DNA from: Lactarius indigo
Taxonomy: Eukaryota; Basidiomycota; Agaricomycetes; Russulales; Russulaceae
NCBI GenBank assembly: GCA_025766275.1
Contig: JAFKAC010000021.1
Span: forward strand, 372,001 to 436,000
DNA length: 64,000 nucleotides
Direction: 5' to 3'
In this document: in pieces, positions 1 to 36,614 of the stretch
How the letters are laid out: each line of letters opens with the position of its first letter
How positions within the stretch are numbered: position 1 is the first letter of the stretch
Translations under genes and position numbers: made by a program
The notes under the pieces: generated by a model
What the model saw: the letters and a program-made list of their open reading frames with translations, nothing else
Told to the model about the DNA's origin: nothing
The model's database searches: none

Positions 1-1000
1 TTGTGGGATAAGTCTGAGTCAGGGTTAGGCTGTCGCCAAACCGGTTTAGTTAGTAGGTCTGCGGCTATGTAGAACGAGCGGCAACTGGCACTGGTAGGAC
101 TCGGAAGAACGTATTAGTGCACTGACGAAGGTCCTCCAAATTCTGCCGGACTTGTTCTGCGCTACCTTGTACTGCTATACTCCGACTCGGAGTCTTTCCT
201 GTACTGTAGTACCGTCTTGCCGCGGCTGCACAGTACACCACCGCCTACTTCCAGCCCAGCGTCGAAACTGACGTAATGCTACCTCCTTCTGTCCCGCCCC
301 CTTGCCCGCCCCCTTCAAGAGCGGTGTGGTCACGCGTCACGTTTACAAGTTTGGACATGGCCTTTTATTTATTCTGTTTCTCACTGCACTCGCGGTTACT
401 GGACCTTCCCTGCACTTCAGGCTAACCACAGTCCGACGGACCAGGTCGTCCCAGTCTGTCCCAATATCGGCCATCTGCATACGGAGGTGGAGATGGACCC
501 TCACATGACCATTCAATTCCTGATCCAATATGCGTCCAGAGCGAGTACTTGCTTTGTCCGCGATCCCTTCCGTCCAACGTTCATCACCACAGGGCATGAG
601 CCGGGATGGCTGGAGCCCGGCGATGTTGCTGAGAGGAGCCTTCTGTCGGCTTTTTGTGCCGCGGTATCCACCTGACATGATGATTATATTCTCATCTGTA
701 GCTCACTCTGAATATTAATATTACGGACTATTGCCAGAATTAAAGATTTGACCAGGTTATGCTGCCAGTATAAGCACCCCGTGCTGTCCAACTTTCCTGT
801 TTTGTAAGTTACACCTACATGGGTACTGAGATTATCAAGGGGTTCGTACGATCAGCGATTGTTCCACCAGTCCAATGATTCTCTCTGCATCTCATGAAGG
901 GGAGCAAAAAAAGTGGTAATGTGCTGTAAGAGAACTACCAGGTGAACCATTACGATTAACCTTACGTTTATGGGCATTTGCCAGTGTCATTCTCCCATAC
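1..1000. other. No recognisable gene
   Basis: Only short open frames without recognisable domains are present. I see no tRNA, repeat array or retroelement motif. From about 1015 to 1090 the sequence resembles the spacer found between each NLR start and the next Lon copy (a 'ctttcattaa' block followed by 'gtactt'-like text), which suggests the array once continued further left. Confidence 0.5.
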
Positions 1001-1261
1001 GAAATCATCGCTCGACATGTGGCTTTCATTAAGTGACGCACTAACTTACATGTACTTGACACGTGCACACTGTAAAAATGAATACATGGGAACAAAAAGA
1101 GAAGAGGAACGTTGGAAAGTCATCAGTGCGTAGAATCCGAGTTACACAAGATGAGCGAAGAGATTGAGACTGATTAAGGTTAGATTAGGCGGGAGCTAGA
1201 GCGAGGGAGAATTAAGGCCGGTGGCATCGTATGTATGCGCACGGAAAAGGAGCATCCGATT

Positions 1262-3395
1262 TTAACCTGCTCTCGATAAGCGGCGCCAGCTGTGCGCTAC
1301 GACTGCGTCCCTTCGCCAAATGCAGCGCCGAGCGCCGAGCGCACCCTCGGCGCTAAAGACGAACTCCATACACTCGCGCACTTCCTTCGGGAAGTCGTGC
1401 TCGACGCCCCTATGGTCCGCCTGAGGTGCACCTTGTTCGCGCCGAGCGCGACATACACCCAGTACTTTCTCTTGGCGCCACCAGCAAGTGAGACGCGTCC
1501 TCGGAGCGTGATTACATTAGAACACGTGGGGAGTCTCACCTCGCCGAACATTGCCGTCAAGAGCGATACGATCGCGCAGACCTACCCATTCTCTCGTTGA
1601 GGAACCGAAATTGGCGGGAAAAAGTGCACGTCGACCATGGCGTCCGGTATCTGCAGTCGGGTCCTGCGCAACGCTTATTCATTATCCCTAGATCGTACGA
1701 GTGCGACTTGACCCAACTGAACGCAAGTTCCGCGTTCTCCTTGATTACCTGAAAACACGACATTTTAGTCAGCATACATGCGAAGAGTAAGGGCGTCCAC
1801 GTTCGGGGCGCGTACGATCAAGTAAACCGGTGGGCTCGAGATGCCCACAACTGGGAGTCGCTCGACGGCTGTGATCTTACCAAAGCCCCCCAGTCACAAC
1901 TCTAAACGACTCCCCGCCACGCCTCGCACTCACAGTGATCGCCGTCGTACGCGACAGCCCCTGGGACCTTCTCCAGACCGACCGCATATGGGACAGGGTT
2001 GTGACCAGTGTCGCCGTCCTTTCCACGCTTGGCCACCACATCTGAAGGTCCGAGGCATCTGACATGTTCGACAAGGGATGGTAATGTGGAAGGCGGCAGC
2101 GTTGCGCGTTGACGTGCGCGGCTCACTCACCGCCTCGAAGTATACAATTTTGTCGATGGAATGCTCGAGTGAACGCCCTCCCACCTTGCGCGAGTACTGC
2201 GTGGTCGTTGGGAGAAGAGCAAGCTCAGTCAGTTGAACGTGCGCTACTGAAAGTGGAGTTGCCTAGGGAGAAGGAACCGCCTAGCAGTGTGAAACCTCGC
2301 GTCGTGCGAGTGCTCACATCGACCGAGGAATGGCGATGCAATAGTGACCAACGATTTGGCCGAGCCGATGAACAAAATTTGTAACAGGTTGAGTCGGGAC
2401 GTTCAGGTAGTCGTCCCACTGGCCGTCTATGTCAGGGGAGAAAAAACTCGAGGTGAGGGGTCTGAAGAATAGTACGTCAAGAGCCACATTTTGGTCCGGA
2501 TCGAAGACAGACCTCGGGCAATGCCGCGGGCGGGTCACTGAGGTAAACCGACTGACCGACCTCATCGATCTCGCCTCTGCCGTCATTGTCATCAAATCTG
2601 CGAACCCCAGAGAGTGGGACAAATGCCCACAATGGAAGCACCGGATTTATACGACCAACCTTGCGCAGAACCTGCGCAGGTAAATCAGGTCGGTGAGCAA
2701 CATATGTCCGACGGTGACCCTGGAACAGTCGACTGAGGGGTGCGAGCGAATTGATTGACCTAGAGGTGTCTTTCTCGTATTCGGTGGCCCAACAGAGCTA
2801 GACCCATGCTCGATGACGTCGTCAAAGGGTGAGAAAGGTGATGATAAACTTACAGTAGCACTGATGACGGAGAGTTGTTGGGGCAAAAGGTTACTTTTTG
2901 TTCGGAGATTCGTCGACGGTAGAAGCTACCTTGGAGTTGATTTGGACGATGGGGAGTTGCTGGCCAGAACATTAGGACAGCTGAAAACACAGGAGGTGAT
3001 TCGGTAGAAACGAGTATGTTACTGTGGATGTCAGCCCTTTCCTTGGCATGAAGTGCAACCGGAAGAGAGAGGGTTGTTCGCCACGAAAGGGTAGAAATTA
3101 TGGACAGGGAAACCGCGTACCAGAATGCGTGAGGACTCCAGAATTAAACAAAAGGCGGTCCTTGGAGAAGGGAAGATTGGAACAGAATGATGCACTCACC
3201 GAATTTATCAGCGTGTTCTGTGTCGACTGTGGAAATAATAGTATGAGCCAGAGTTGTGGCCTTGCGTGGTCACCGGTCAGCTCTCGTCGAAAAGGCAAAT
3301 TATGTGATGTGGGACCAGCTCAGTCGCTTGAGGGTGCTGCAAGGTATCGAAAGGGCCCCACGAGGCGGATGATAGGCATCCTGGAAGACGTCTGA
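1262..3395 (-). pseudogene. Lon protease (LONP2-like) copy 1, heavily decayed
   Basis: This is a relic of an ATP-dependent peroxisomal Lon protease, recognised by alignment by eye to the better copies at 10158, 21027 and 33208. Stretches matching the C-terminal protease domain (1262-1900), the AAA+ core (about 2050-2850, including a damaged Walker A read as PPNTRKTPLGQS) and the N-terminal substrate-binding region (about 2850-3395) are in the right order on the minus strand. The C-terminal ESRL is still visible, but the stop after it has changed to a lysine codon. The segment that would hold the catalytic serine is missing, the Lys motif is broken, and no frame stays open for more than about 90 codons. 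It is the most degraded of the four copies and has no NLR gene to its left inside the window. Confidence 0.75.
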
Positions 3396-4040: not shown

Positions 4041-7000
4041 TTAGTCGTTCTCCGCCTGGGCTTTCGCGTCATAATCGAGCAGGACGCTTGCAATATCGAG
4101 CAGTCCGCGGCAGCGCGCTAAATGTAACGGAGTTGCATGGTCCTTATCTTGCAAATTCATGTCCGCGCCGTGCTCCAATAATAGCTGTGTGATGCCGACA
4201 GCGTGTTCCTGGGAGCCGTATTTGCCTCGTGTCACTAAGTGCAATGGGGTCTCGCCCTTGTCGTTCTTCGCGTCCACATTTGCGCCATGGTCGAGAAGCA
4301 CCTGTGCGACCTCGAGTCTCCCAGAGTAGGAGGCGGAATGTAAGTGGGGTGTCATGGTCCTTGTCCGGGGCGTTGACATTCACGCCACGCTCCAGCAATA
4401 GCTGCGCAATGCTGGCGCCGTCTCCTCCGGAGTCGTATTCGCCTCGAGACACCAGATGCAATGGAGTCTCGCCCTGGTCGTTTTCCGTGTTCGCGCTTGC
4501 ACCACGGTAGAGAAGCATGCTTGCGATCTCAAGTCTCCCCCTGAAAGCTGCCGAGTGTAAGGCGGTGTCGTGGTCCTTGTCTTGAGTATGGGCCTTTACT
4601 CCGTGCTTCAACAATAGCCGTGCAATGCCGACACCGTGTTCTTTGGAGTCATATTCACCTCGTGACACTAGGTGCAATGTGGTCTCGCCCTGGTCGTTCT
4701 CCACGTCTGCGTTTGCACCATGGGCGAGAAGCACCTGTGGTCCCGAAGTATAAATGGATTGAAAAAAGGGAGAGGGACAGAAGCACCTGTGTGATCTCAA
4801 GTCTCCCTCCGAAACTTGCGAAATGTAACGGGGTCCACTCGCTTTCCGTCTGCGCATTCACGTCCCCACCACGCTCCAGCAATAGCCGTGCAATGTCGAT
4901 ACCGCGTTCTTGAGAGCTATATTTAACTTGTGACACGAGATGCAATGGGGTTTCACCCCCTCCGTTCTCCGCGTTCGGGTTTGCCCCATTATCGAGGAGC
5001 ACCATTGCGATCCTGAGCCTCCCTCTGAAAGCCGCTGCGTGCAGCGCGGTGCTGTAGTGTTCGTCCTCGGCATGGACATCCGCGCCGTGCTCCAATAATA
5101 GTCGTGCGATACCAACACCATGTTCTTGAGAGTAATACTCGCCTCGAGACACTAGGTGTAATGGGGTCTCACCCTGGTCGTTTTCTACACCTGTGTCTGC
5201 GCCGTGGTCGAGAAGCACCTGTGGTCCCAGCATATAATGGATTTAAAAAGAGAGAGAGAGAGAGAGAAGTACCTGTGCGATATGGAGCCTCCCCCCGAAA
5301 CCTGCAAAGTGTAATGGTGTCCACTCGTTCTTCGTCTGTGCGTTCACGTCCGCACCGCGCGCCGATAATAGCCGTGCGATGTTGGCACCGCTTTCTTGGG
5401 AGTTATATTCGCTTCGTGACGCCTAGGTGCAATGGCGTCTCTCCCTGGTCGTTCTCTGTGTTCGGGTTTGCACCATGGTCGAGAAGGACCTTCGCTAGTT
5501 CGAGCCTCCCTCTGAAAGCTGCCGAGTGTAATGCGGTCTCGTGGTTTTTGTCTTGGGAATTGACATCCACACCGTGCTCTACAAATAGCCGTGCGATGCC
5601 GACGCCCTGTTCTTGGAAGGGGTGTTCGCCTCGTGACAATAGATGCAATGGGGTCTCACCCAGGTCATTCTTTGCGGTCGTGTCTGCGCCATGGCCGAGA
5701 AGCACCCTTGCGATCCCGAGCCAACCTCTGAACGCCGCTGAATGTAACGGGGTGGTTTTGTCCTTCTCCCGTGCGTTGACATCCACATCGTGCTCCAGTA
5801 ACAACCGGACAAAATCGGCATCGCGTTCTTTGTAGTTATGTATGCCTTGCGACACTAGGTGCAACGGCGTCTCGCCGGTGTTGTTCTCCGCGCTAGCATC
5901 TGCCCCGTTCTCAAGAAGAATCCGAGCGCACCTGTACATCCGACGGCGCAGTGCCAGGTGTAACGGAGTATTGTTGTGGTTATCCAGTCTATTCGCGTCC
6001 GCCCCATGCTCCAGTAATATCCGCGCAAGATCAAGAACATCACCGTTTTCACGCTCCTTGTGTTCAAATAGTAGGTGCAACGGGGTCTTGTCATTGAAGT
6101 CCCGAGAATCGACGTCCGCTTTATGCTCGAGTAGCACTCGAGCTACCTCGAGCTCTTCGTAATGTACCACCAGATGTAGCGGAGTACGGAGGTCACCCTT
6201 CCGGCAATTTACATCCGCGCCATATTTGAGTAAGAGTCGAACTATGCTGACGTCTCTGATTGCCTCGTGGAGTAGCGTCTGTTCTCCCATTCCTCGAATA
6301 TCGACATTCGCGCCATGCTTAAGTAGGCTCTCCGCAGCCTTGATGTGTTTCCTAACAACTGCTGCACGCAGCGGAAACCCGTACTGGCCACCAATGGCAT
6401 TTAAGTGTTGCGGGTGTTTGATGGCGAGGTGTTCGGCCAAGTCGGAGAATCCACAAAGTGAGGAGTAGTACAAGGGGGTAGGTATATCTGACTCCCGGTA
6501 GGCCTGGTCGAACCTATCTATGTTGTATATTCTGACCCACGCCGTAAAATGAGGTTTGTCATAGTCAAAGAGAGTCTCCATCCCATCCTTTACACGTGAC
6601 GCGACATCCTCGAATTGCGCATGCGTGACCCAGTGTTGAGCCGCATATCCTGTCAGAGGGAAGCTCTCGACGTTCTCTTCATCGGCATGATCACCCAAAT
6701 GGAGAAGAAATCCGAGACATGCTTGAGCGAGGATCGTGTGCGCGGGTACGGGATTGATCTGATATCGAGAGAAATCTCCAAGTGAGGAAGTGAGGCGGTC
6801 CGACGTCAAGAACTCCTTCACAGAGAAATGCGAAAACTGGACGACCTGGGAACCGTTGTCGTCGACAATGGCGATCAGACTTGAGCATGTGGACAGCACG
6901 GCCTGTTCTTGGTCATTCGACCGCCAACCCGCGCGGTATCTCGGAACTGCTCCTTTGACTATATCGAACTCGAATGCGAGCACTTCTGCAAGCTCTTCAA

Positions 7001-9169
7001 CACGAAGCGGACGGACCGCCACCATGAGGCACTGTAGCATACGATGGGCGTGTGCTTGGTTCGCCAGGGGGATTTGACTGAGTACGCGTGCATACGTCTC
7101 GTCTAACGACTCCGGTAACCGGTCTAGGACTTGCCGAATACTCGCGGTGATACAATGCTGCAGCACCTCTAGCTGACAGTATACCCATCGAAACCTGCAT
7201 GACAGAAAATAAGAGGACCGATCGCCGAGGATGGAGTGATGCCCTTACATTCCGTCCGCTTTTTCGGACAGCACCTCAACAACCAGCTTCTTATCCGCAT
7301 CGCGCCATCTCCGCATCTTCCTGTCAGAGTTTACGACGGTGTTCACGTAGTCGGAAATATCCTTCTTTTGTCCACTTTCTTCATGAAGTGATACAGCACT
7401 ATAGGCAAGTGGCTCGAGAACAATTTTGATGTCAGCCTCCGGGCGGCTAGTAACACAAATATGCAAGTTTGGAATGCACAAGCCGAGAATGTCCTCCAGA
7501 AGGTCAAGGAGCACCGCTCGTGGAGTTGGCAGCCCAGAGATGTTGGGACACTCATCAAGTGCGTCAATGATGATGTAGACCGGCTGCTGGGCGACAACTT
7601 TGAGCATCTCCTTTAGGCAATCGATCAAGACACCGATGCTCGGTTGCTGCGTGCCTTTCCCGTGTGCGGAATAGAGACGGAATATTATGTTACAGCAAGG
7701 TTCCGAGCAGGCAGAGAATTGAGTGAGAAGTGAGGTGACAAAGTTGCGAACGTTTTGTTTTTGCTTGTCTCGAAAGTCAAAGAAGAAATATGCTAGGGAG
7801 GCTTGTCCGGCATCGCGTAACGATATAACATGTTTGATTATCGCAGAGCTTTAGTCAATATGAGCTCCGCTGCCTGGGACGATAATAGAGAAACGACGAA
7901 CCAAAGGATGCTCTTGCCCGAGCCCGCTAGGGAAAAGGGAAGACCATCAGTAGTTTATCGGTGAAAGATGGGAAGAACACACGTTTTCCATGTATCCAGA
8001 GGAGGGAACCGATTAGTTCCCACTCCTTGAACATACTCCCTCGAAAGAACCACGCGGCAGTTCCCTCTTGGTAAGCCTCACGCGCGAAGTTGTAATTTAC
8101 GGACGGGTCGGGGGCGGAGAACCATTTTCGGACGTCTTGTTCTATCTGGTTCCCTGCGGCAGAGTTTCAGTCTTCATGACGGGGGTAAAGGAGTGAGCCA
8201 ATCACGAACACTTTATTTTTCCCACGTCGTCCTTTATTTCGTCCACGTCATTCGCTATTTGTTGCACAGCTTCATTAGCATTCTTGGCACCTAGAAAGAC
8301 AACAGTTGAGTGAGGAGTGAGTTTGTCAGTGGGATTGCGCACTATATTTTAGCTCATTGATACCCTTTAGAACCTGAGATATCGCCATCCGAACCTCCTC
8401 CTGTGTCAAGTTATCTAACCTCTTTAAGGCGTCCTCGATATCCGACCTCCCCACTAACTTCTTGAAATATGATCCTGGTTAAACAGGAGAGCTGTCAGGT
8501 GTTAATTAAGCATATCTCGTAGAAATGACCTACTTGTCCGACTTTGTTGCATTTCCTTCGTCGCGATGGTGAGTACGGTGAGTACCTCAGCCATGATTTT
8601 TACCAGTATCTCCACCATATCCTCGGTTGGTGAAATCTGAGCATGAACGCCAAGGCGCTTGAGGAAGAATTGAATGCGCTCAAACAGGTCGGCTAGCGCA
8701 TCGTGGCTTCCCCAGACATCCTTTGCTGCCTGTAATCGTTGTTAAAAGGACCGATAAGAAAGAACGCGAATGAACGGACAGTGAGGAGGATACCAATTCC
8801 GGCAAAGACAGCTTTCGCAGAGGGAAGCGCCTGCACATGATGTTAGAATGCATCTCGAGTTGTCTTCCTGATACCACATACCATGCCAACACCCTCGCCA
8901 AGAGTCGCGGAAAGTGTGTAGAGGACGTGCACAGATGGTCGGATCCACTTCATTAGGCCCTTATCGGCCCGCCTAAACCTATCAAATGCCTTAGTTTGGT
9001 GTTGAATTATGGCCAGGACGGCCTCGACGGACTCGCAGCCTTGGAGTTCCTTGGCGAGAGGGCTGTCTAAAAGGTCATTCCCGGTCTTTTTATTGTACTC
9101 GGTCAAGGCAGCATCAAGGATTGATTTGAATCGAGAAGATGACACCGGTGTTTGGGATGGTGAAGCCAT
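4041..9169 (-). CDS. NLR A: Goodbye-NACHT-ankyrin STAND protein, two apparent frameshifts
   Basis: This is a fungal NLR-like signalling ATPase. From the ATG at 9169 the order is: a Goodbye N-terminal domain (exon 8882-9169, then a 51-bp exon 8780-8830 and more exons to about 8380); a NACHT domain with Walker A GKPGSGKS assembled across an intron near 7920, Walker B VYIIIDALDE near 7565 and the sensor-like CVTSRPE near 7440; a winged-helix/VKEFL segment (about 6750-7190); and many ankyrin repeats to 4041. Introns at 8831-8881, 8730-8779, 5219-5272 (with an AG microsatellite) and 4735-4786 are directly visible. The frame breaks at about 5421 and about 4345, each time by one extra base compared with sister repeats. 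The gene stops early at 4041 and lacks the basic C-terminal tail of NLR B and C. It may be a real pseudogene or a victim of assembly insertion errors. The family function (ligand-triggered oligomerisation, incompatibility or immunity) is inferred. Confidence 0.8.
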
Positions 9170-10157: not shown

Positions 10158-12100
10158 CTATAGCCTGCTCTCAACAACCGGCGTGAGCGTGCGCCACGGC
10201 AGAGCCCCTTCGCCAAACGCCGCATCAAGCACCTCGCGCATCGTCCGCGCAGACACGAATTGCATCCGCGCCCGCACCTCCTTCGGCACATCGTGTTCGA
10301 CATCTTTCCGATCTGCCCAAGGTACAATTACCTTGTTCGCACCTGCACGATGCGCGCCCCAGAGAGAAATGCGTACATGAGAGCGTTACTAAACCAGGAA
10401 CGCTAGCGACGTATGTCCGATGGTGACTCCGTATCTCGGCCCCATCGCGCACGCCATCAAGAGCGAGGCGCTAGAACGGCCGACCGAGGGCGCAAGCGAT
10501 AGATTGACCTAGAGAAGTCTTTCCCGTCCCCGGCGGTCCAATGAAGCTAAATACACGCTCAATGGCATCTTCCAATAAGCATAAGAGGTAATGAACAAAC
10601 TCATAGCAGAATCGGGGCCCTTGGCCCTCAACACGCTTTGCAGGGGTGGTACCGGAACGGGTACTCGTAGTAGAGCCAAGATTTCACCTGCTTCGATGAG
10701 GGCCCTGCACGCGTTCTCCTTCTGGCTATCGGCTTCGTTTGCACCTGCGGCTGGATCGTCGATGACCTCCTTGGGGGAGACTTCCTGCGCCTTTGCCTGC
10801 CTCTTACGCGATCAAGGCGCGCAGCTGGACGACAGGGAGGTACTCCATCAATCGACGCTTGACTTTCTCGAGGCAGTAATGGTCTACGTTGAGCTGTGAT
10901 TTGGAGGTGGTGAGGAAATCCGATCGTGAGTGTTTCAGAGGCGGTCGCAGGGGGAGTCCAGGGTAGAGAAGTAAGCCATTACGAGCTGCGGTAGCAGGTC
11001 GGGGCAATGAAGCTACGAAAGATGGGTCTACGCACGTGTGTCCTTTCGACTCCATGTGCTGCATTCTGAGGAGGGATCCGCTTCAGGGGCGCGCCTCAGC
11101 GGTGGCGGCGCGCCGCACTTTGCTGCCCACGGGGAGAGTGTCAACGCGACAAATGAGTAAGTCCAGCTCATCCTCATCTTCTACGCCATCTCCCGTGCCA
11201 TGTAAATTGGTATTTCCAGGCTCGAGACGTAGCTTGGCATTGATAATGGTGAGTTGTTGCCGCAAGAAGACCACCTTTTGGCAATAGCAATCTTGGAGCT
11301 GACTTCGAAGATTGAGAGTTGCTTCGCGAGAACATTCGTGAAGAACCAATGATAGTGATTCGGTGGAAATGAGTACTACGGAGGATGTCAGCCATTTCCC
11401 ACAGAGTTGCGAACGGAAGAGAGGAGGCTGGTGCGTCACGGGATAAAGGTGGGTGCCAACTGTGAGCCCGCGGAGGGGGGAAACCCTGCATGAGCGTGCA
11501 TGGGGACTCCAAAAATACAATATGAAGTGGCAACAGCATCAGGGATGATCGGAACAGAGCATCGGACTCACCAAGTTTATCAGCGTGTTCAGCGCCGACC
11601 ACGGAGACGATAGCATCAGCGAGAGCGGCAGCCCTGTGTGGTTCGCTCTCTTCGACGAGATGGGCGATACGGGACCATCTCTCGCGCTTGCGGGCAGACT
11701 ACAAAGTGTCCTGCGAGAAGCACTCTAGCAGGCAGATGACGGCGGCCTTGAAGTCCTGGACGACGTCTGTGGCTAGGGGCGAGTCAGCATCGGGTGGACG
11801 GTGGGAGACGTTGAGGCGGCGTAGGGGTAAAGGGTCGCTGACGAGTTGTGGGGTCACTCAGGCGGACGCGGGCGATGCCAGTGAAGGTGGGGCTATCAGA
11901 GCTAGTGCAGAGACGGACGAAACGGGTGACGCAGGTAGTGACGGCCCACTTGAGGACGAAAGTGGTTCCTTCATTCTAGACGAGGGGAAGGGGTTGCTAG
12001 AGGAAGATTCGATGAGACGAAGGAGGGTGTCTGCGCGGTTTACAGCTATAGGAAACTTGAAGGTGGCGCATAGCGTACTGAGAACAATAGGAGGAGTTTT
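10158..12100 (-). pseudogene. Lon protease (LONP2-like) copy 2, internal deletion
   Basis: This is a broken copy of the peroxisomal-type Lon gene. The C-terminal piece ends in VVESRL and a stop at 10158-10160 (a PTS1-like tripeptide SRL). Near 10355-10400 the sequence jumps directly from the conserved AHRAGANKV region to the RRTYVAS segment of the AAA+ domain. Compared with the 33-36 kb copy, about 1.4 kb is lost, including Walker B, the sensor region, and both the catalytic serine and lysine motifs. The N-terminal part (11640-12100) is recognisable, but an in-frame TAG interrupts it near 11970 in the VQNEG region. It cannot make a protease. Reading minus, NLR A lies downstream and the unidentified plus-strand element lies upstream at 12190. 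Confidence 0.8.
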
Positions 12101-12189: not shown

Positions 12190-13480
12190 ATGTCTGGCGA
12201 TTCATCGCGCCCCTTTGTGATGCCTTGCCCTGCATCAAAGCGTCCCTCCAGCACCGTCACTCCATGCACGTTCTCGTCTCTCCATCCGCGCACGCAAAAC
12301 CCAAGCGGTCCCCTCCTCTCTCTTGCGCAGGCATCCCCCAGTATCTCCTGCACAAAAAGCCCAAACACGATGCAGGCGCAGATCGCGGAAAAGAAGGCTT
12401 AGATGGATAAAGAAGCCCATTATACCTGACACTACATACGCTCTCCGCGACTGCACCCGTAAGGCGCTGGGCCGGCATCACGCTGCACACGCACACCTTC
12501 CGCTTGGTGTATTCGTCGCTCATGGCGCGTGCTCCTCCTCCCACGCATGCCCGCTTCACCAGCTAGCCACAGTAGGCTCTTCGCTGGGGGACACACCCAT
12601 GCGCCGCGTCCCGGAAGAACAACAATAACAACGGCGTTGGCGTTGGCGCGGGTGCGGCGAAGGGAAAGGAGGAAGAGAACGCACGGTTCGAGCTGACCAG
12701 CTTGCTTCCCCAGGCAGGTGCGGTCTCGCGCCTTGCTCTCTACCACTCTACAGTCAGTCATATCTACCCACGTATGCTCTACACCCTCGTCTCTCCCCCA
12801 AATAGGTACTCCCCCATCAAGTGCTTCTCCCCCTCCGCTTTTCTCTCTCCACCACCGCTGACAAATCGAGCGTGGCACGGCGCTCGCGGGAATCACCACC
12901 TTCCGGAGCGTGCGAGACGACACTCTGGCTCTTCGACACCCCCACCGCAGGTAGGGCAGCGGGGATCCTGGCGGATGCCCCGCTCGGCCGAGCTCTGACC
13001 GCTTGCCGCTTGCGTGGGACGATGCGAGCGTGCGTGTGCGCACTGCACGTATGTCGTCACCCTCACTAAGTGCCCCGCTCCCCGTACCACCTCAAGCGAA
13101 GAAGACGAGGGAGAAGAGATGGTGTTTTAGATATGATTGAGAAGGGGAGAGGATCGTAGAGTGGGTGCGGAGGCATTAGTCCGCGTGATGGGGTGTCCCT
13201 ACCATTCAGCGGCTCCAGTTCTGGCTATGGCGAGCACAAGGAGTGACAACGAAGGCAAGGCCGGTGAATGTGCCAAGGGTGATGCCAAAGAAGGATGACG
13301 GCGACAACGAAGGAGAAGGATCTGGTGAAGAGTGTATCGAGGCCTGGGCCAAAGTTGCCCCCACTCTTATGCGCGGCAGGAGCGGGCGCAAGGGGTCGTG
13401 TGCGGTGGTAGACGCTGCCGGCGGACTTGTCGTTGACTACCTTGTCAGACGCGGACCTTGTGGACCCAGAGCGCCGGCAC
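12190..13480 (+). pseudogene. Unidentified plus-strand element, copy 1 (divergent to Lon copy 2)
   Basis: This stretch is homologous to 24555-25830. Both have a 'caagcgtccctccag' block, a codon run reading KKPK, a GAGRGAAKG-like low-complexity stretch near 12640, and a shared 3' part at 13230-13480. No single frame stays open across it: frames change every 100-300 bases, and the best pieces are about 12323-12628 and 13243-13704. I do not recognise the protein. It is either a decayed gene transcribed away from the Lon gene or non-coding. It is absent beside Lon copies 1 and 4. Confidence 0.4.
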
Positions 13481-13829
13481 TACCCGCTATTCGTGATGAG
13501 AACAGTCACAGGCATGAGGTAGAAAGGGGTGTATGTGCGGAGGGTAATCCCGTCACCCTCGATATAGAGTGTACGTCCGGTCGGTCGCTGGGCCTGGTGA
13601 CGGCGCTGGTGACGGGCGGTCACGTCACCGGGGGGTCACCACCGCGGGACCCCCAAGATACGTGCACCCAAGCCTTTGCTTACGATAGCATGCTTAGCAC
13701 TTAGCGTCCTTAGGACGTTTCGAACGTTTTCCATTTTCGTCCTGACTGTCCTTAGCGCCCTTAGGGCTCTTTGCACATTTCGACTTTTTAACGTTCCCCC
13801 TCGCGTTCCCCGGTTTCCCCAGCGTGCCG

Positions 13830-24360: not shown

Positions 24361-24554
24361 TGTTGTCGTGAGAGACGAAGAGCTCGGATGGTTCAAGTAT
24401 CACACACAGCAGAATAACCACATGACCCGGGTCGACAGAGTTGATGACGTAATAATTCGGCCTCGGCCATTCCCTTACTGTCTCCTTTGGTTCCGCCTTT
24501 CCCAACCTCCATTACCACAATACGCCATACCTCGACTCCTTCAACGCCGTCTAT

Positions 24555-25830
24555 GATGTCGTCTTTTCAACCTAAAGATCGCTCAGAGCGTCCCAAAGTT
24601 ACACCGACGTCCGACTATGCCTCGCGTCTGGCAGCTCATTGCGCCCAGACGGTGACGCAGATCTCTGCGACGCCTTGTCCCAGAACCAAGCGTCCCTCCA
24701 GAACGCCCTGCACCCCCTCGGCTCTCTACCCGCACCCACAATGCAAGCGCTTCCCTTCGCCCTTTCTCACACAAGCGCCCCTTCGAACAAAAAGCCCAAA
24801 CGCGAGGAAGATGAAGATGGGGAGGAGGACCCCCCGTACCTGACGCCACACGCGCTCTCCGTGATTGCGCCAGTTTGGCTCAAGTTCGATATCATACTGT
24901 ACTCGTGCTCCCTCCCTCTCACACATGCTGCTACTGATGCACCCTCGTATGCTGCACGTGCGCAGTGCTCACACGCTTGTTCTTCCTCCCAAGGCGTGAC
25001 TCACTCTCGTTGCACTTCCTCGCTGGGGGCACGTCCATGCCCATGTCCCGCCGCCTGCCGCGTTCAAGAAAGGAAACAACAACAATGGTCCTGGTCCTGG
25101 TGCGGGACGCGGCGCGGCGAAGGGAAAGAAGGGTGGCGCGCAGTCCGAGCTTGCTTACTTAGTTCCTGAGGCAGGCGCGGTCCTGTGCCTCGCTCTCCAC
25201 AGTTACACTCACACCAATACCCACCTCTCGCCCTCACCTTCATCTCTACGTCGAAATACGTGCTCTCCCATCCCGCACCAGGCGCCTCTCTCTCGTCTCG
25301 CTTTTCTCTCCACCTCTACCCCACCCTCGTACAAATTGGGCGCCGCGGGCCACTCGCGGGGATCACCGCCTCCCGTGGCGTGGGACGTCACATTGGTTTC
25401 TCGATAGCTCGGGGATCCTGGCAGATGTGCGCCCGGCCGAAATCTCGGCGCTTGCGAATCTCACGCCGGGCAACCCTGGCATACCCGTATGGAGCATGTG
25501 CGGTGGCGAGAAGAAAATCGGAGACGGACTCGGGTTTCGAGCAGGAGAGCGGGGAGAATGACAGCGGATTCCCGTCGCCCTGCAGCTGCAGCTCCAACCC
25601 GGACGATTACGAGGGCAGCGAAGTGAGTGACAACAACGGCGGGGGGCGATGAATGTGGGAGACGATAAATGAGACGAAAGAGAGATAGTCAAGCTTGGCT
25701 CAATGCACCACCCGCTCTTGCGCGCTGCGGCAGCGGGCGCAATACCCAAGATGTCGCAGACGCTGCCGTCGGATTGTCGTTGACGACCTCATTGGACGGT
25801 GGCCTGGCGGACCCCGACCGCCAGCACCAC
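24555..25830 (+). pseudogene. Unidentified plus-strand element, copy 2 (divergent to Lon copy 3)
   Basis: This is homologous to 12190-13480 and is the better preserved copy. An ATG at 24555 begins MSSFQPKDRSERPK. After one apparent frame change near 24640 the frame reads LSQNQASLQNALHPLGSLP and then KKPKREEDEDGEED, an acidic/basic stretch typical of nuclear proteins. Further pieces (SELAYLVPEAGAV near 25150) follow in shifting frames. I do not recognise a domain. It may be an ordinary gene captured when the NLR-Lon unit duplicated. Confidence 0.4.
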
Positions 25831-26076
25831 TACACACGACGAGAAAAGTGAGGAAGACAAGTTTGAGAACCGAGCACCGAATACCGAGTCAGTGTGTCAC
25901 AATATTGTTCCTACATCCTATATATTGACGAGGTCTTATACAGTAATGGGCCTCATGCGCGAGTCTCGAGTAATTAGTTCAGGGATCCTTAACAAAAAGC
26001 TTGTCTTCCCTTCCCTTTTATAATCCTCCCCACTCCCGAAGTAGGGAGTGACATAGTTTCCCAATATAGTTTCCCG

Positions 26077-29000
26077 TCAAGCATTAAGGTTGGTGAAGTC
26101 CACGTGCCGCCACGGCACGAGATGCATGTCTTCGTGGAGTTTGGGCTTCTTTTCTTCGGACCTGCTTCCCTCGTCGCCTGTTTTCCTCTTCGTTCCTCGA
26201 CTGGCGCGTTCGGCATCTTTTGCGCCATGCTCGAGCAACAGCCGTGCAATATCGAACCTCCTAAAGTAGGAGGCAGAATAGAATGGGGTGTATTGGTCCT
26301 TGTCCGGGGCGTTGACATCTGCACCGCGCTCTAACAATAGTCGGGCAATACTGACACCGTCTCCTTGAGAGGAATATTTGCCTTGTGACACGACGTGCAA
26401 CGGTGTCTCACCCTGTTCATCCGCCGCGTTCGGATTTGCACCGTGGTTGAGAAGCGCCCTTGCAATCTCGAGCCTCCCCTTGAAAACTGCTGAATGTAAC
26501 GGGACCCACTTGTTCTTCTTTTTTCCGTTCACGTCCACGCCACGCTCCAGCAGTAGCCGCGCAATACCGACATGTTCGGGGGAGTCATATTTGCCTTGTG
26601 ACACTAGGTGTAATGGGGTCTCACCCTGCTCGTTCTCCGCGTCCGCGTTTGCACCATGGTCGAGAAGTAGACTTGCGATCTTGAGCCTCCCCCCGAAAGC
26701 TGCTGAATGTAATGGGGTGGCCTTGTTCTTGCCCCGTGCATTGACATCCACGCCGTGCTCCAGCAATAATTGGGCAGTGTCGACACTACCTTCTTGGGAG
26801 TCATATTCGCCCCGTGAGACTAGGTTCAATGGGGTCTCGCCCTCATCATTCTCCGCGTCCGCATTTGCACCATAGTTGAGAAGCACCTGTACGATCTTGA
26901 ACTTTCCTTTGAAAGCTGCTGTGTGTAACGGGGTAGTCTTTTTCCTATTCCGTGCGTCGAGATCCGCGCCGTTCCCCAGCAGTAGCCGTGCAATGCCGAC
27001 ACCGTCTTTGTCGGAGCCGTATTCGCCTCGCGACACTAGGTGTAACGGTGTCTCTCCTTGGTCGTCCTCCGCGGTTGTGTTTGCATCGTAGTCAACAAGC
27101 ATACTTGCAACCTTGAGACTCCCGTTGAAAGCTGCTAAATGTAACGGGGTGGCCTTGTTCTTGTTCCGTGCGTTGACATTTACGCCGCAGTCCAGCAACA
27201 GCTTTGCAATGCCGACACCGTCTTCTTGGGCAGCGTATTCGCCTCGTGACACCAGATGCAACGGGGTCTCTCCCTGGTCGTTCTCTACGTCTGCATGTGC
27301 ACCATGGTCGAGAAGCAAACTTGCGATCTTGAACCTCCCCCTGAAAGCTGCTGAATGTAGCGAGGTGGTCTTGTTCTTGCTCCGTGCATTGACATCCACG
27401 CCGTGCTCAAGCAATAATTGGGCAGTACCGACGCCATCTTCTTGGGAGTCATATTCACCCCGTGAGACTAGGTTCAATGGGGTCTCGCCCTCATCATTCT
27501 CCGCGTCCACATTTGCACTATGGCTGAGAAGCGCCTTTACGATCTTGAACCTCCCCTTGAAAGCTGCTGAATGTAATGGGGTCCACTTGTTCTTATTCCA
27601 TGTGTCGATATCCCCGCCGTGCTCCAGCAATAGCCGTGTAAGGCCGACACCGTCTTCTTGGGATTTGTACTCACCCCTTGACACTAAGTTCAATGGGGTC
27701 TCGCCCTCATCGTTCTCCGCGTCTGCGTTTGCACCATGGTCCAGAAGCACTCTTGCGACCTTGTACCTCCCGCTGAAAGATGCCGAATGTAATGGGGTGT
27801 TCTTATTCTTATTCTGTGCTTCGACATCCTCACCGCGCCCTAGCAGTAGCCGTGCAATGCCGGCACCGTCTTCTTGGGGGTTGTATTCACCTCTTGACAC
27901 TAGGTTCAACGGGGTCTCGCCTTCGTCGTTCTCCGCGCCCGAGTTTGCGCCGTGATTGAGGAGCATCTGTAGCCCTGGGATATGATGGTGTTGTTTTATT
28001 TCGTTTAAAAGATGACAAGTACCTGTGCGATCTCAAGCCTCCCCTTGAAAGCCGCCGAATGTAATGGGGTCCACTTGTTCTTATTCCGTGCGTTCACACC
28101 GACGCCGTTCCCCAGCAGTAGTCGTGCAATGCCGACACCGTCTTCTTGGGAGTTGTATTCACCTCTTGACACTAGATTCAATGGGGTCTCTTCCTCGTCG
28201 TTCTCTGCGTCCGCGTTTGCGCCGTGGTTGAGGAGCATCTGTGGTTGTAGTGTGATGGTATTGTTTTTTGTTTTAAAAAAGACAAGTACCTGTGCGATCT
28301 CGAGCCTCCCCCTGAAAGCTGCCGAATGTAATGGAGTCCACTTGTTCTTATTCGGTGTGTCGACATCCACGCCGCGCTCCAGTAATAGTCGTGCAATTCC
28401 GACGCCATCTTCTTGGGAGTTGTATTCACCTCTTGACACTAGATTCAATGGGGTCTCGCCCTGATCGTTCTCCGCGTCCGCGTTTGCACCGTAGTTGAGG
28501 AGCATCTGTGGTTGTAGTGTGATGGTGTTGTATTTTTGTTAAAAAAGACAAGTACCTGTGCGATCTCGAGCCTCCCTTTAAAAGCTGCCGAATGTAATGG
28601 GGTCCACTTGTTCTTATTCGGTGTGTCGACATCCACGCCGCGCTCCAGTAATAGTCGTGCAATGCGGACGCCATCTTCTTGGGAGTTGTATTCACCTCTT
28701 GACACTAGATTCAATGGGGTCTCGCCCTCGTCGTTCTCCGCGTCCGCATCTGCATCGTGGTCGAGAAGCATCTATGGTCCGGGGATATAAACGGTTTGTT
28801 TAAAATGAATAAAGAGAAGTACCTGTGCAGTATTGAGCTGCCCCTTTGAAGTTGCCGAATGTAATGGGGTGTTATGACCCCCGTCCACGGCGTTAACATC
28901 GGCGCCGCGCGACAACAATAGCCGTGCAACACCGCTTTGGTCTCTTTGGGCGGGATGTAGGTCTCGTGATGCTAGGTGCAAGGGCGTTATACCCTGATCA

Positions 29001-32000
29001 GTCCTCGCGTTCACGTGTGCGCCGTGGTCGATGAGCACCTCTGCGATGTTGAGCCAACCCTTGGAGGCCGCATCATGCAATAGTGTCCACTTGTTTGCCC
29101 CTATGTTCACGTTCGCGCCATGCTTTAGCGATGACACTAAAGTATCGAGAATATGGCCTTCAAGTTCAGGTTTGTTGTCATATCTGCGGTCCGCGGAACC
29201 GTCGCCTCCAAGCAGTCGGTGCAACTTTGTATCGCTAGCGTATTTCTCCGTGGAACCACTGCTTCCAAACAGTTCGTGCAATGGGGTCTTTCCAGCGTAG
29301 TTCTCCGCGCTAGCATCTGCGCCAAACTCAAGAAGAGCTTTCGCGCGACTGGAGCCCCGCTCGCCCATCGCCATTGCCAGATGTAACGGGGTATTGTGGT
29401 CCTCGTCTCGTGTGTTCACATCCGCGCCATGTTCCAGTAATAACTGTGCAAGACCGAAAAAATTGTCGTTTTTAAACAGTATGTCGCTTTTAAACAGTAA
29501 TCCAACATTATCTTCAAACAATAATTGGAACGGGGTCTTGCGCCTGTTATCCCGAGAATTGACGTCTGCCTTGTGCTCAAGTAGCACTCGTGCTTCCTCA
29601 AGCTCTCCGTCACGTACTGCTAAATGCAGTGGAGTATGGAGATCATCCTCCTGCCGATAATTTACATCCGCCCCATGGCTGAGTAGGAACTGAACTACGC
29701 TGATGATCGTGGTTGTTATTCTGGGCATTCGTTTCCGGCCTCTCATTCCGGTATTGACATTCGCACCGCGCTTAAGCAGGATCTCCGCGACCCCGACGTG
29801 CCTTTCAACAAGTGCTGCAAGTAGGGGCGAATTGTACGTGCCACCAACAGCATTTAGGTGCTGCGGATATTTGATGGCGAGGTGTTCAACCAAGTTGGAG
29901 AATCCACAAAGCGAAGAATAGTATATGGGCGTGGGCAACTTTTGACGGGTCCGGGTCCGGGTCCAGGGCCGGATCCAGGTCCTGGTCTGGTCTATGTCGT
30001 ATATTCCAACCCATGCCGCGAAATGAGGTTTGTCGCAGTCAAAGAGAGCCTCCATCCCATCCTTCACACGTGAAGCGACGTCCTCGAATTGCGCATGTGT
30101 GATCCAGTGTTGAGCCGCATATTGCGCCAGAGGGGAGCTCTTGATGCTGAGTTCATCGGTGTGATCATTCAAATGAAGAAGAACTCCGAGACAGGCTTGA
30201 GCGAGGATCGTGTGCGCAGGTCCGGGATTGATCTGATACTGAGAAAAGTTTCCGAGTGAGGATGTGAGGCGATCCGACATCAAGAACTCCTTCACGGAGA
30301 AGTGCGAAAACTGGACGACCTGAGAACCGTTGTCGTCGACAATGGAGATCAAACTTGAGCATGTGGAGAGCACGGCTTGTTCTTGGTCATTTGACCGCCA
30401 ACCCGCACGGTATCTCGGAATCGCTCCTTGAGCTATATCGAACTCGAAGGCAAGCAGTTCGGCAAGCTCTTCAACACGAAGCGGACGGATAGCCACAGTG
30501 AGGCATTGCAGCAAACGATGGGCGTGCGCTTGGTTAGGCTGGGGGATTTGCTTGAGTACGTGCGCATACGTCTCGTCCAACGATTCGGGCAACTGGTGAA
30601 GGGTCTGCCGAATACTCGCTGGGAGACAGTGCCGCAACACCTCCAGCTGACAAAAAACCCATCTGAACCTGTATGATAAAATTAGGGGAGTTTTCTCAGA
30701 GAAAGGTGAGATGCCCTTACATTCCCTCTGCTTTGTTAGATAGCCCCTCGACAACCAGCTTCTTTTCTTCATCCCGCCACTTCCGCATCTTCCCGTCTGA
30801 GTTTACGACGGTGTTCACGTAGTCAGAAATATCCTGCTTTTGCCCACTTTCGGCATGGAGTGAAACAGTACTATAGGCAAGTGGCTCGAGAACAATTTTG
30901 ATGTCGACCTCCGGCCGGCTAGTGACACATATATGCAAGTTTGGAATGCGCAGATCCACAAGGCCCTTTAGAAGGCCAAGGAGTACCGCTCTCGGGGTCG
31001 GTATCCCAGAGATATCGGGGCATTCGTCGAGTGCGTCAATGATGAGGTAAACTGGCCGTTGAGTTGCGACAAATAGCATGTCGTGAAGACACTTCGTCAA
31101 GTTGCCAATGCTGGGTTGTTGCGTACCCTTCCCGTGTTTAGAATAAATATCGAAAATTATCTTGCGACAAGGGTCCGAGTGGGCAGAAAGTTGAATAAGA
31201 AGGGAGGTGAGAAAGTTGCGAGGGTCTTGCTTTTTCTCCTTGTCTCGAAAGTCGAAGAAGAAATACGCTATGCAGGCATCTCCAGCATCGCGCAATGATA
31301 TGACGTGTTTGATAATAGCAGAGCTTTAGTCAATGTGAGTCCCGCACCTGGGGACGATAGTAGGGAAATGACGAACGAAAGAATGCTCTTCCCTGAGCCC
31401 GCTGCGGAAACAGGGAGACCATTAAGAGTTGGGTAGTGAAAGATAAGATGATGGACGCACGTTTTCCGTGTACCCAGAGAAGAGTACCAACTAACTCCCA
31501 CTCCTTGAATATGCTACCTTGAAAGAACCACGCGGCAGTTCCCTCTTGATGAGACTCGCAGGCGGTGTTGTAATTTACGGACGGGTCCGGCGGGGAAAAC
31601 CATCTTCGAACGTCCTGTTCTATCTGGTTCCCTGCACCGAGGTTTCAGTCTCCACAGCGGAGGCAATCGAGGTCGTAGATCACGAACACTTTATTTCACG
31701 CAGAGCCTCCTCGACTTTCTTGGCATCTGTAGAATAAAACTCAGCGAGGAGTGGGTGCTGTGTAATGGGCCCCGCACCGTCTTTGAGTAATTTGATACCC
31801 TGCAGAACCTGAGCTATCGCCATCCGAACCTCCTCCTGCGTTAGGCTATCCAACTTCTTTAAGGCGTCCTCGATATCCGTCCTTCCTAGTAGCTTCTTGA
31901 GATATGTCTCTGTTCAAATGCGGAGCGGTCAAATGCTAATTATGAATATCTCGCAGAAATAACCTACTCGTTTTACTTTGTTGCATTTCCTTGGTCGCGA

Positions 32001-32617
32001 TAGAGAGTATAACGATCACCTCGGCCATGATTTTCACAAGTATCTCCAACATATCTTCGGTCGGTGAAATCCGAGTATGAACGCCGAGACGCTTGAGGAA
32101 AAATTGAATGCGCTCAAAGAGGTCGACGAGCGCATCGTGGCTCGCCCGGACGTCCTTTGCTGCCTATTAAAACATCAGGATTGAAAGGGTCGACAAACAA
32201 AAAGGAAGACAGATGAACGAACGGCGAGGAGGATACCAATTCCTGTGAAGACTGCTTTCGCAGAAGGAACCGCCTGTACACCGTGACAATGTCGTTACAG
32301 TAAATTACTTTGCCGATACGTACCACGCCAACGCCGTCGCCGAGAGCTGCAGAAATCGTATAGAGGACATGTACCGATGAACGGATCCATTTCATTAACT
32401 TGCTACCGCCATTCTTGAACTTATTAAACGCCTCGGCTTGACCTTTAATTATGTCCATGACGGCCTCGACAGAGTCACAGTTTTGCAATTCCTTAGCGAG
32501 CCAATTGTCTAAAAGGTTTTTCCCAGTCTCTTCCTTGAACTCGTTCAAGGCGGCACTAATGACGGATTCGAATTGCGAAGAAGACGCAGGTGTTTGGGAA
32601 GATGAAGACCGTGACAT
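26077..32617 (-). CDS. NLR C: Goodbye-NACHT-ankyrin STAND protein, intact, recently expanded repeats
   Basis: This is the largest of the three NLR genes, coding for about 1,950 residues. The ATG at 32617 opens a Goodbye domain (MSRSSSSQTPASSSQFES start). NACHT motifs: Walker A GKPGSGKSIL formed by splicing near 31395, Walker B VYLIIDALDE near 31035 and CVTSRPE near 30920. A winged-helix/VKEFL region lies at about 30280-30660, then ankyrin repeats run from about 29900 to 26250. Introns at 28772-28822, 28506-28555, 28239-28289 and 27967-28022 all lie between phase-0 exons; the three exons between them are each exactly 216 bp (72 codons). The C-terminus is basic (TKRK, then EKKPKLHED), a candidate bipartite nuclear signal shared with NLR B. 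No frameshift is seen. It presumably acts as a cytoplasmic or nuclear sensor, with the ankyrin array as ligand-binding surface (inference from the family). Confidence 0.9.
27967..28822 (-). repeat. Tandem exon-intron units encoding paired ankyrin repeats
   Basis: Intron left edges lie at 27967, 28239, 28506 and 28772, giving periods of 272, 267 and 266 bp. Each unit is one 216-bp exon (two ankyrin repeats) plus one 50-56 bp intron. Introns and exons are both very similar between units, so whole units were duplicated. All three exons start and end in phase 0. Confidence 0.85.
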
Positions 32618-33207: not shown

Positions 33208-36200
33208 CTATAGCCTGCTCTCAACAACCGGAGTGAGCGTGCGCCACGGCAGCGCCCCCTCGCCAAATGCCGCATCGAGCACCTCGCGCACCGTCCGCGC
33301 AAACACGAATTGCATTCGCGCCCGCACCTCCTTCGGCACGTCGTGTTCCACATCTTTACGATTTGCCCAAGGTACGATCACCTTGTTCGCACCTGCTCGA
33401 TGCGCGCCCAATACTTTCTCTTTGACCCCACCGACAGGTGAAACGCGTCCGCGGAGCGTGATCTAGACCAAAAGACTAAGTTGGAACATGTCCTGTGGAG
33501 GGTCCCAGAAACACGCACCTCGCCAGTCATTGCCGTAGTTGGTGGGACGCACTTGCCCGTCAAGAGCGATACCATCGCGCATACCTGCCCAATCTCTCCT
33601 TGAGCAACTGAAATCAGAGGCGAAGACATCTGTATGCGCACCATGGCGACACCCGCACTCGGACCGTCCTTCTTCTGCGCACCCGCAGGGAGGTGCAGAT
33701 GCACGTCTATCATGGCGTCCGGTATCCGCAGTGGGTCCTGCGCCCGCTTACTCGTGATCCCTAGATCATACGAGTGCGTCTTGACCCAACTAAGCGCAAG
33801 TTCCGCGCTCTCCTTAATCACCTGAAAACCCGACCGTTTCAGAAAAGCTACCTGAAAACAAGAACATCCAACGTTGAGACATACATCACCAAGTGAACCG
33901 GTGAGCTTGAGATGCCCACTACCCGGAGTTGCGATACTCTCGACGGGCATGATCTCACCCTCGCCCATCCCAGTCACGACAAGTCCCCAAACGACTCCTC
34001 GCCGCGCCTCGCGTTCACGGTCCTCGCCGTCATAACGCGACAGTCCAAGAATTTTCTCCAGCTCGTCCTGCTTCGACGACGGGGTTGTAGCCCCCCTTAT
34101 CGCCGTCCTTGCTACGCTTGACTAGGGCATCTGAGGCTTCTGACGCTGGCAGCAAGGGAGCAGGCAATGAAGAAGGCGCCAAGCCCTGCGCATCGACGTG
34201 CGCTGCCCACTCAACCGCCTTGAATCGCACGATTCCGCCAATCGAACGCTCCAGTGAACGCACTCCAGCCTCGCGCGTGTAATGCGTGACCGTTTTGAGC
34301 AGCGCAGGGTTCCGTCAGTTGAACATGGGGTTCTGAAAGCCCGTTCTGCGCGAGTTGCTTTGGGAGAAGGAACCGCCGCGCAATGTGCAACTTCTCGTCG
34401 TGCGTGTACCCAGACAATTGGATTACCTCACACCGATCGAGGAGAGGCGGTGAGATGGTGTCAAGCGAAGTTGGCGGTGCATATGAACAAGATCTGTGAC
34501 AAATCAATCGGGACGTTGAGGTAGTGGTCCTAGAACCGGAAATCTGTGTCAGAAAAAGAGGTTTCAGGCCGGGTGTTTGAAGAAGCACATACATTGAAGG
34601 CCACATTTTGTTCCGGGTCGAGGACCTCGAGTAACGCCGCGGACGGGTCACCGTGGTAATTCGACTGACCGACCTTATCGATCTCGTCTCTGCCGTCATC
34701 ACTGTCGTTAAATCTGCGAACTCCGCGAACTGGGGTAAAAGCTCACAATAATAGAACCGGATCCATACGACCGGCCTTCCGCAAGGCCTGGGCAAGTAAA
34801 CCTGGCCCGCTGGCAACGTATGTCCGACGGTGACCCCGTATCTCAGCCTCATCACGTACACCACCGAGAGCGATGCGCTGGAACGGCCGACCGAGAGCGC
34901 GAGCGATCGATTGACCTAGAGAAGTCTTTCCTGTACCCGGCGGCCCGATGAAGCTAAACACATGCTCGATGACGTCGTCCGATGATAGGTAATGGATGAA
35001 CTCACAGCAGAATGGGGGCTTTGATACCTTTGGCCTTTGACAGGCTTTGCGGGGGTGGTACCGGCACGGGTACTTGTGGTAAGGCCGGAATTTCACCTGC
35101 TTTGATCAAGGCCCTGCACGCATTCTCCTTCTGGCTATCGGCTTCGTTAGCACCCGCGGCTGGATCTTCGATGACCTTCTTGAGCGTGACCTCCTGTGCC
35201 TTTGCCTGCTCCGTCTCTGCCTCTTGCGCAATCAAAGCGCGCAACGGACGACGGCGAGGTACTCCATCAATCGACGCTTGACCTTTTCGAGGCCATAATG
35301 GTCGGCGTCGAGCTGTGATTTGGAAGTTGGTGAGGAAATCCGATCGTGTGAGAGGTTTCTGAGGCGGTCACAGGGGGAGTCCAGGGTAAAGAAGTGAGCC
35401 ATTCGAGCTGCGGTGACAGGTCAGGGCAATGAAACTACGGAAAGATGGGCCTACGCACGTATGTCCTTACGACGCCGTGCTCTGCATTCTGAGGAGGGAT
35501 CCGCTTCAGGCGCCGCGCCTCAGCCGTAGCCGCCCGCCGCACTTCACTACCCACAGGGAGAGTGTCGACGCGACGAATGAGTAAGTCCAGCTCGTCCTCG
35601 TCCTCCACTCCATTTCCCGTGCCGTGTAGGTCGGTATTTCCTGGCTCTAGACGTTGTAGCTCAGCACTGATGGCGGCAAGTTGTTGACGCAAGAAGAGCG
35701 CCTTCTGTTGTTTGGAGAGTGACTCATCGACGGCGGTAGCGATCTTGGAGCTGACTTCGACGATTGAGAGTTGCTTCGCAAGAACATTTGTGACATGTTG
35801 GAGACGCAATGATGGTGATTCGGTGGAAAGGAGTACTACGGAGGGCTGTCAGCCATTTCCCACGGAGTTGGCAGCGGAAGAGAGGAGGCTGGTGCGTCAC
35901 GGGATAAAGGTGGATGCCAACTGTGCGTCCGCGGAGGGGGAAAACCCCGCTCGAGCGTGCATGCGGACTCCAAAAATACAATATGATGCCGCAACAACAT
36001 CAGGGAAGATCGGAACACAGCATCGGACTCACCAAGTTTATCAGCGTGTTCAGCGCCGACCGCGGAGACGATAGCATCAGCGAGAGCAGCAGCCTTGTGT
36101 GGTTCGCTCTCCTCGACGAGATGGGCGATACGGGACCAGCTCTCGCGCTTGCGGGCGGACTGCGAAGTGTCCTGCGAGAAGCGCTCTAGGAGGCGGATGG

Positions 36201-36614
36201 CGGCGGCCTTGAAGTCTTGGACGACGTCTGTGGCCGGGGGCGAGTCGGCATCTGGTGGAGGGTGGGAGACATCGAGGACGGGGTAGGGGTAAGGGGTCGT
36301 TGACGACTTGTGGGGGATCGGTAAGGCGGACGCGAGCGATGCCGGTGAGAGTGAGGAGGTGGGGTTCCTCAGAGTTGGCTCGAGGACGGACGAAACGGGT
36401 GATGCGGGCGGTGACGGCCCACTTATGGACAGGAGGTAGTCCCTTCGTTCTGGACGATGGGTACGGCGGCGAGGATGGGGTTGCTGGGAGACGATTCGAT
36501 GAGACGAAGGAGGGCGTCTGCGAGGTTTGCAGGTATAGGAAAGGTGGCGCGTGCACCTGGAAGGAGAACTAGAGGGAAAGGTAAGATGATGAGTGGCAGA
36601 GTGGGTTGTTCCAT
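33208..36614 (-). CDS. Lon protease, peroxisomal type (LONP2 family), copy 4, motifs complete but frameshifted
   Basis: Lon family AAA+ serine protease degrading damaged matrix proteins; the C-terminal SRL is a PTS1, so the peroxisome is the expected site. The ATG at 36614 starts the N-domain ([13 protein letters not shown]). The coiled coil ([19 protein letters not shown]) lies near 35750. The P-loop [12 protein letters not shown] lies near 34940, interrupted by an intron just upstream. Walker B LLLDEIDKVG is formed by splicing near 34690-34750. The catalytic box [11 protein letters not shown] is near 33660 and the lysine box [11 protein letters not shown] near 33415. At least five single-base insertions break the frame (about 36432, 36277, 34468, 34310 and 34075), all relative to copy 3 or family expectation. 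If those are assembly errors this is the one functional Lon gene here; if real, it is a pseudogene. It abuts the conserved KAP95 block, so it is probably the ancestral copy. Confidence 0.75.

Follow-up and report, generated by a model that had tools for sequence, protein, structure and literature searches.

Does a NOD-like receptor (NLR) gene that repeatedly adjoins a peroxisomal-type Lon protease gene form a functional pair with it, or has the protease gene simply been carried along as the receptor genes were copied? The question is raised by a stretch of 64,000 nucleotides from Lactarius indigo, positions 372001-436000 of contig JAFKAC010000021.1 (here C124; assembly of 90.3 Mb in 291 contigs), which is referred to below, at its full length, as the window. 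A preliminary description reported in it a tandem array of NLR genes with Goodbye, NACHT and ankyrin domains, alternating with copies of LONP2, the peroxisomal Lon gene, and left both answers open. We find that the extra copies of LONP2, and of a second neighbour encoding an Rtt106-like histone chaperone (X), have decayed while the NLRs have stayed under constraint; the NLR-Lon pairing is therefore most likely a by-product of copying. Very probably, a segment consisting of X, an NLR and LONP2 was copied in tandem, with the NLRs kept by selection and the surplus neighbours decaying as hitch-hikers. The array is a tandem NLR array of known kind, accompanied by hitch-hiking pseudogenes. Of the two options first considered, hitch-hiking is the one that the tests support, with three of the four Lon copies broken, the second neighbour decayed too, and no comparable Lon gene beside the NLR relatives examined elsewhere in the genome; the functional pair is not supported. 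We argue from what is directly observed: how the genes are ordered, which copies are relics, where their substitutions fall, and how seldom Lon sequence occurs near the other NLRs of this genome.

Organization of the array

The alternation of NLR genes with LONP2 copies in a single orientation is real, as both the self-BLASTN repeats and the domain matches show. All three NLRs and all four Lon copies lie on the minus strand (self-BLASTN and reading of frames); LonA and LonB are 89.4% identical over 3.7 kb that include part of the spacer, and NLR1 and NLR2 are 79.3% identical over 3.3 kb, both far above chance. Along the contig the elements are arranged as X - (an NLR, probably lost) - LonD - NLR3 - LonC - XC - NLR2 - LonB - XB - NLR1 - LonA - importin beta. 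The NLR starts given earlier (32617, 20448 and 9169) are exact start codons, and three of the four Lon ends (33208, 21027 and 10158) are exact stop codons, whereas at the fourth, position 1262 in LonD, the stop codon is mutated. Two other elements of the preliminary description have to be given up. The unit does not have a uniform period of 11-12 kb, since the Lon copies are spaced end to end by 12.2, 10.9 and 8.9 kb, and the four Lon copies cannot be treated as alike, since B, C and D are relics and A has frame interruptions as assembled. A third repeated component, the Rtt106-like relics at 24502-25843 and 12206-13519, had been overlooked. With an importin-beta exon and LonA as queries, the array region is found as a single copy in the assembly. 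Elsewhere the assembly contains both haplotypes of one or more loci, since a different Lon gene occurs in two copies. The components, from right to left, are as follows.

37346..40771, minus strand: importin subunit beta-1 (Kap95-like), the right neighbour of LonA, with one-base frame interruptions
33208..36614, minus strand: LonA, the constrained LONP2 copy, with C-terminal SRL and several one-base frame interruptions as assembled
26077..32617, minus strand: NLR1, a Goodbye-NACHT-ankyrin gene with introns
24502..25843, plus strand: XB, a decayed Rtt106-like histone chaperone relic
21027..24357, minus strand: LonB, a LONP2 pseudogene that has lost its start codon and catalytic serine, with frameshifts, deletions and neutral substitutions
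14785..20448, minus strand: NLR2, a Goodbye-NACHT-ankyrin gene with introns and one 941-aa open frame inside
12206..13519, plus strand: XC, a decayed Rtt106-like relic
10158..12055, minus strand: LonC, a LONP2 pseudogene lacking the AAA lid and the greater part of the protease domain, with its 3' end kept and in-frame stops
4041..9169, minus strand: NLR3, a Goodbye-NACHT-ankyrin gene whose long frame ends at 5406 and whose C-terminal tail is absent
1262..3300, minus strand: LonD, the most diverged LONP2 relic, heavily eroded, with its stop codon lost

Decay of the Lon copies

When its coding blocks are joined by hand, the LonA read-through matches PF02190 (Lon N-domain), PF00004 (AAA), PF22667 (lid) and PF05362 (Lon_C), all above the cut-offs. 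Its KDGPSAG aligns with KDGPAAG of PDB 3m6a, where alanine stands in the place of the serine, and its GGVKEK aligns with GGLKEK of the same entry; we take these to be the catalytic serine and lysine motifs of the Lon protease domain. LonA, LonB and LonC each end in SRL and a stop, a type 1 peroxisomal targeting signal (PTS1), and in LonD the stop is lost.

Substitutions private to LonA, LonB or LonC were taken from an alignment of these three copies, in which codon phase was set by hand from the LonA blocks (497, 497 and 494 three-way sites at codon positions 1, 2 and 3). LonA has 5, 1 and 33 private changes at the three positions, so that only 6 of 39 fall at positions 1 and 2 (p=6e-11 against 2/3). 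The corresponding figures for LonB are 21, 34 and 31 (55 of 86 at positions 1 and 2, p=0.65), a pattern that differs from that of LonA (Fisher p=3e-7), and those for LonC are 47, 48 and 70 (95 of 165, p=0.016), a mixed signal that includes the deeper branch. Among the Lon copies, only LonA, at the right edge of the array beside importin-beta, shows purifying selection; LonB has changed as expected without selection, and LonC is partly neutral.

The lesions differ from copy to copy. In LonB, the catalytic serine of KDGPSAG is deleted and there are frameshifts and deletions, with no stop within the codons compared; deletions prevail over insertions by 10 to 5. In LonC, the alignment lacks everything from the AAA lid through most of the protease domain, and 4 in-frame stops are present; its gap pieces comprise 30 deletions and 2 insertions, most of them fragments into which the aligner broke a single large loss. 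LonD is eroded throughout and contains 5 in-frame stops.

Is LonA a working gene?

As assembled, none of the four Lon copies has an uninterrupted frame, introns aside. In LonA, six joins between coding blocks are too tight for an intron, and the alignment contains 15 runs present in LonA only (11 of one base, the others of 3, 3, 6 and 8) together with one one-base deletion. Two of the 11 one-base runs are better read as losses elsewhere, one being shared with LonD and the other keeping the frame of LonA, and the longer runs may be losses in LonB. It could be argued from these interruptions that all four copies are dead and that the species has lost its peroxisomal Lon, especially as the search of the assembly turned up no further LONP2: the 8 Lon_C matches in its 90.3 Mb are six pieces of the array copies and two alleles of another Lon gene, mitochondrial by eye, whose copies lie on other contigs, are 98.8% alike and have open exons of 301, 348, 260 and 175 residues. 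We nevertheless consider such a loss very unlikely. First of all, private changes in LonA are scarce at codon positions 1 and 2. Second, its private one-base indels amount to 11 insertions against 1 deletion, the opposite of what is seen in LonB and LonC. Third, the only importin-beta gene found in the assembly is likewise interrupted, which points to assembly errors.

This last comparison rests on a gene that was found once, a 217-aa exon query returning, apart from the gene itself, four hits that are 24-28% identical. Its frames match residues 594-652 and 672-750 and are separated by 59 bases where 57 are needed, leaving no room for an intron, and further one-base interruptions are seen by eye. 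Importin beta-1 is essential in yeast. Because the only importin-beta found in the assembly has interruptions of the same kind, we read those of LonA, together with those of importin-beta, as likely local insertions of the assembly. Against this, the coding blocks of the array NLRs have no such interruptions, so that assembly errors, if that is what they are, would have to be unevenly distributed. Programmed frameshifting was also considered for the one-base interruptions of LonA and dropped, since visual inspection revealed no sequence context common to them and they are missing from the blocks of the array NLRs. To judge from its sequence, LonA probably makes a working peroxisomal protease.

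A second decayed neighbour

The parent copy of X lies at about C124:367.1-368.8 kb, just left of the window, where one of the frame pieces scanned in 8 kb of left flank matches PF08512 with 37.8 bits (cut-off 25.5). XB and XC are diverged relics of this gene on the plus strand, each separating a Lon copy from the NLR that follows. The parent is constrained, with 14, 8 and 35 private changes at codon positions 1, 2 and 3 (p=1.6e-5), and the relics are not, with 26, 32 and 30 in XB (p=0.91) and 43, 31 and 32 in XC (p=0.54); in the compared blocks, XB has 9 and XC has 15 non-triplet indels relative to X. The frame of the parent itself shifts along the gene, through introns or the same kind of interruption. 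Between LonD and NLR3 no X relic was found. For the NLR of the leftmost unit, neither the NLR2 nor the Lon query has a match in the 8 kb left of the window, and the single piece scanned from the leftmost-unit stretch of that flank has no Pfam match.

The NLRs remain constrained

Among the pieces of NLR2 scanned with Pfam, Goodbye (PF17109) is matched with 27.3 bits (cut-off 24.8) and the NACHT-type P-loop family NPHP3_N (PF24883) with 76.4 bits (cut-off 24.8), the generic NACHT family (PF05729) staying at 23.4 bits, under its cut-off of 26.7. Six-frame profile matches place Goodbye above cut-off in all three array NLRs, and the NACHT-type domain of NLR1 and NLR3 is identified by alignment to NLR2 only. 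Ankyrin matches are very strong on pieces of NLR1 and NLR2 (PF12796 and others); in NLR3 the repeats were recognized by eye, and its long open frame stops within one of them, through a frameshift or an unrecognised intron, the C-terminal tail being common to NLR1 and NLR2 only. No stops occur across 688-689 codons per copy, and the indels among the compared blocks are all triplet. Private changes at codon positions 1, 2 and 3 number 41, 23 and 77 in NLR1, 43, 29 and 61 in NLR2, and 59, 42 and 110 in NLR3, and the ratio of nonsynonymous to synonymous divergence (dN/dS) for the three pairs is 0.28, 0.23 and 0.31. All three NLRs remain under constraint. By analogy with what is thought of other fungal NLRs, they may act in non-self recognition. 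They belong to a large complement, with at least 138 Goodbye matches genome-wide (150 of 967 candidates scored, alleles counted). As a separate observation, the ankyrin regions at 4117-5892, 14779-16990 and 26071-28870 have 70-87% DNA identity both within and between the NLRs, as if the repeats had been homogenised or recently amplified.

Lon sequence near other NLRs

To place the array among the other NLRs of the genome, we chose 42 main NLR bodies from 117 rows, leaving out the shorter rows; 40 of 569 candidates had been scored. Three of the 42, all in the array, have Lon sequence no more than 1 kb away, and six have it within 20 kb. Two relatives of the array NLRs were examined more closely, and neither a Lon nor an X relic was found in 3.7 kb upstream of the one at C124:336 kb (78%) or in 2.7 kb upstream of the one at C1:3.88 Mb. 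A DNA search for Lon (16 matches, 12 candidates) gave, elsewhere in the genome, LONP2 pieces of about 575 bp, two on C79 and one on C285, and shorter matches on C112, C68, C228, C220 and C227. The C79 and C285 pieces sit in a repeat that is about 95-97% alike between copies and contains a hAT-like transposase stretch (by eye); a transposon has apparently picked up a LONP2 fragment and carried it to several places. Two of these matches lie near an NLR, the piece on C285 at 5.9 kb and a 170-bp match on C227 at 8.6 kb, and neither was counted as an NLR-Lon pair.

Origin of the array

The ancestral segment would have comprised the Rtt106-like X, an NLR and the peroxisomal Lon gene, and would have been duplicated in tandem about three times, presumably by unequal crossing-over. 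Selection would then have retained the NLR copies as the extra X and Lon copies turned into pseudogenes, and the oldest junctions would have lost an NLR and an X. The constrained X at the far left and the constrained LONP2 at the far right are what repetition of an X-NLR-LONP2 unit between two fixed flanks would predict.

Several points weigh against this account. First, the ages disagree: synonymous divergence (dS) is 0.44 for NLR1/NLR2 and 0.20 for the linked LonA/LonB. Second, an unrooted five-copy tree joins NLR3 to the copy on C1 with support of 99, so that the array NLRs form no tidy clade. Exchange with other NLR paralogues, or conversion among the Lon copies, may be behind these mismatches, which show that the parts of a unit have not had one simple history in common; the age mismatch does not rescue the pairing idea. 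Third, the 42 NLR rows include three, not in the array, that have a small Lon match less than 20 kb away (at 5.9 and 15.7 kb on C285, both distances being to one and the same piece, and at 8.6 kb on C227). Fourth, the NLR rows derive from the 40 candidates scored, and older Lon relics may be too diverged for a DNA search. Finally, LonA is not open as assembled, and its function rests on the substitution pattern and the hand-set codon phase.

An alternative to decay by hitch-hiking is that the 3' ends of the Lon copies have been kept as upstream regulatory DNA of the NLRs, the relics having thus acquired a new role. In LonC, where the core is deleted, the last ~200 bp and the next ~370 bp are indeed 0.90-0.92 identical to LonA (33408-32840), but other parts of LonC also reach 0.90-0.92, the last block before the NLR start falls to 0.78 (A-C) and 0.66 (B-C), and the NLR relatives at C124:336 kb and on C1 share only short spacer matches of at most 73 bp. 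We regard this reuse as very unlikely.

A functional pair of LonA and NLR1, in which the receptor would guard or control the protease, and of which the remaining pairs would be decayed copies, is highly improbable: the constrained LonA does share its orientation with NLR1 and lie ~590 bp upstream of it, and linkage of a fungal NLR to a partner gene has precedents (NWD2/het-S, PMC3321046), but NLR2 and NLR3 stay constrained with no working Lon alongside (LonB being neutral and LonC and LonD broken), the two close relatives have no Lon upstream, Lon within 1 kb does not recur at independent loci among the 42 rows, X decays likewise on the other side of the NLR, and the constraint on LonA is explicable without any NLR. 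If true, NLR1-LonA would be the first case in fungi of an NLR connected with a quality-control protease of the peroxisome, and the founder pair alone would still work. Among the papers listed on the subject, no fungal NLR-Lon pair came to light, and the one centred on Lon concerns plants.

Comparison with known systems

Tandem copying with hitch-hiking places the array beside the clustered NACHT NLRs with Goodbye-like N-termini and ankyrin repeats that are described in a survey of Sordariales (PMC12258605). The likeness lies in the clustering and in the domains, and the pseudogene relics of two neighbours set the present array apart. The survey mentions that clusters may come about by unequal crossing-over, and favours diversification by means other than tandem duplication. 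In Basidiomycota, Goodbye-like N-termini, together with the related HeLo and MLKL-like domains, are reported to make up the superfamily most often found at the N-terminus of NLRs (PMC9815663). On the protease side, LON2 of Sordaria macrospora is a peroxisomal/glyoxysomal Lon with SRL as its PTS1 (PMC7911957), and LonA resembles it in having the Lon N-domain, AAA and protease domains and a C-terminal SRL; that fungus is described with one LON2 gene, whereas here one constrained copy is joined by three relics. NWD2/het-S pairs (PMC3321046) are similar in that an NLR adjoins a different gene, and the title of that report speaks of clustering across various fungal genomes; here, in contrast, the partner copies have decayed and the link is found in one array of one genome.

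A false lead, the NLR-protease partnership, is thus removed, and the locus shows that a fungal NLR array is able to grow by copying its whole neighbourhood. The relics of two neighbours in several units provide a built-in, near-neutral clock beside the NLRs, with which one locus would suffice to measure the order in which the units arose, gene conversion and any faster change of the NLRs.

Other features of the window

Beyond importin beta, the neighbours at 44318-51000 include a poly(A)-polymerase-like gene, PAN3 and TFIIE-beta; the first two have frame changes that, by eye, resemble the interruptions of LonA and importin beta. At 51203-58539 there are three tandem plus-strand gene copies, 86-92% identical, and two frames of the first copy have no Pfam match; by eye, the frame changes at one common place in all three, through either an intron or a frameshift that they share. 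A Copia-type retrotransposon with an intact frame of 1390 aa occupies the right end of the window (59829-63998).

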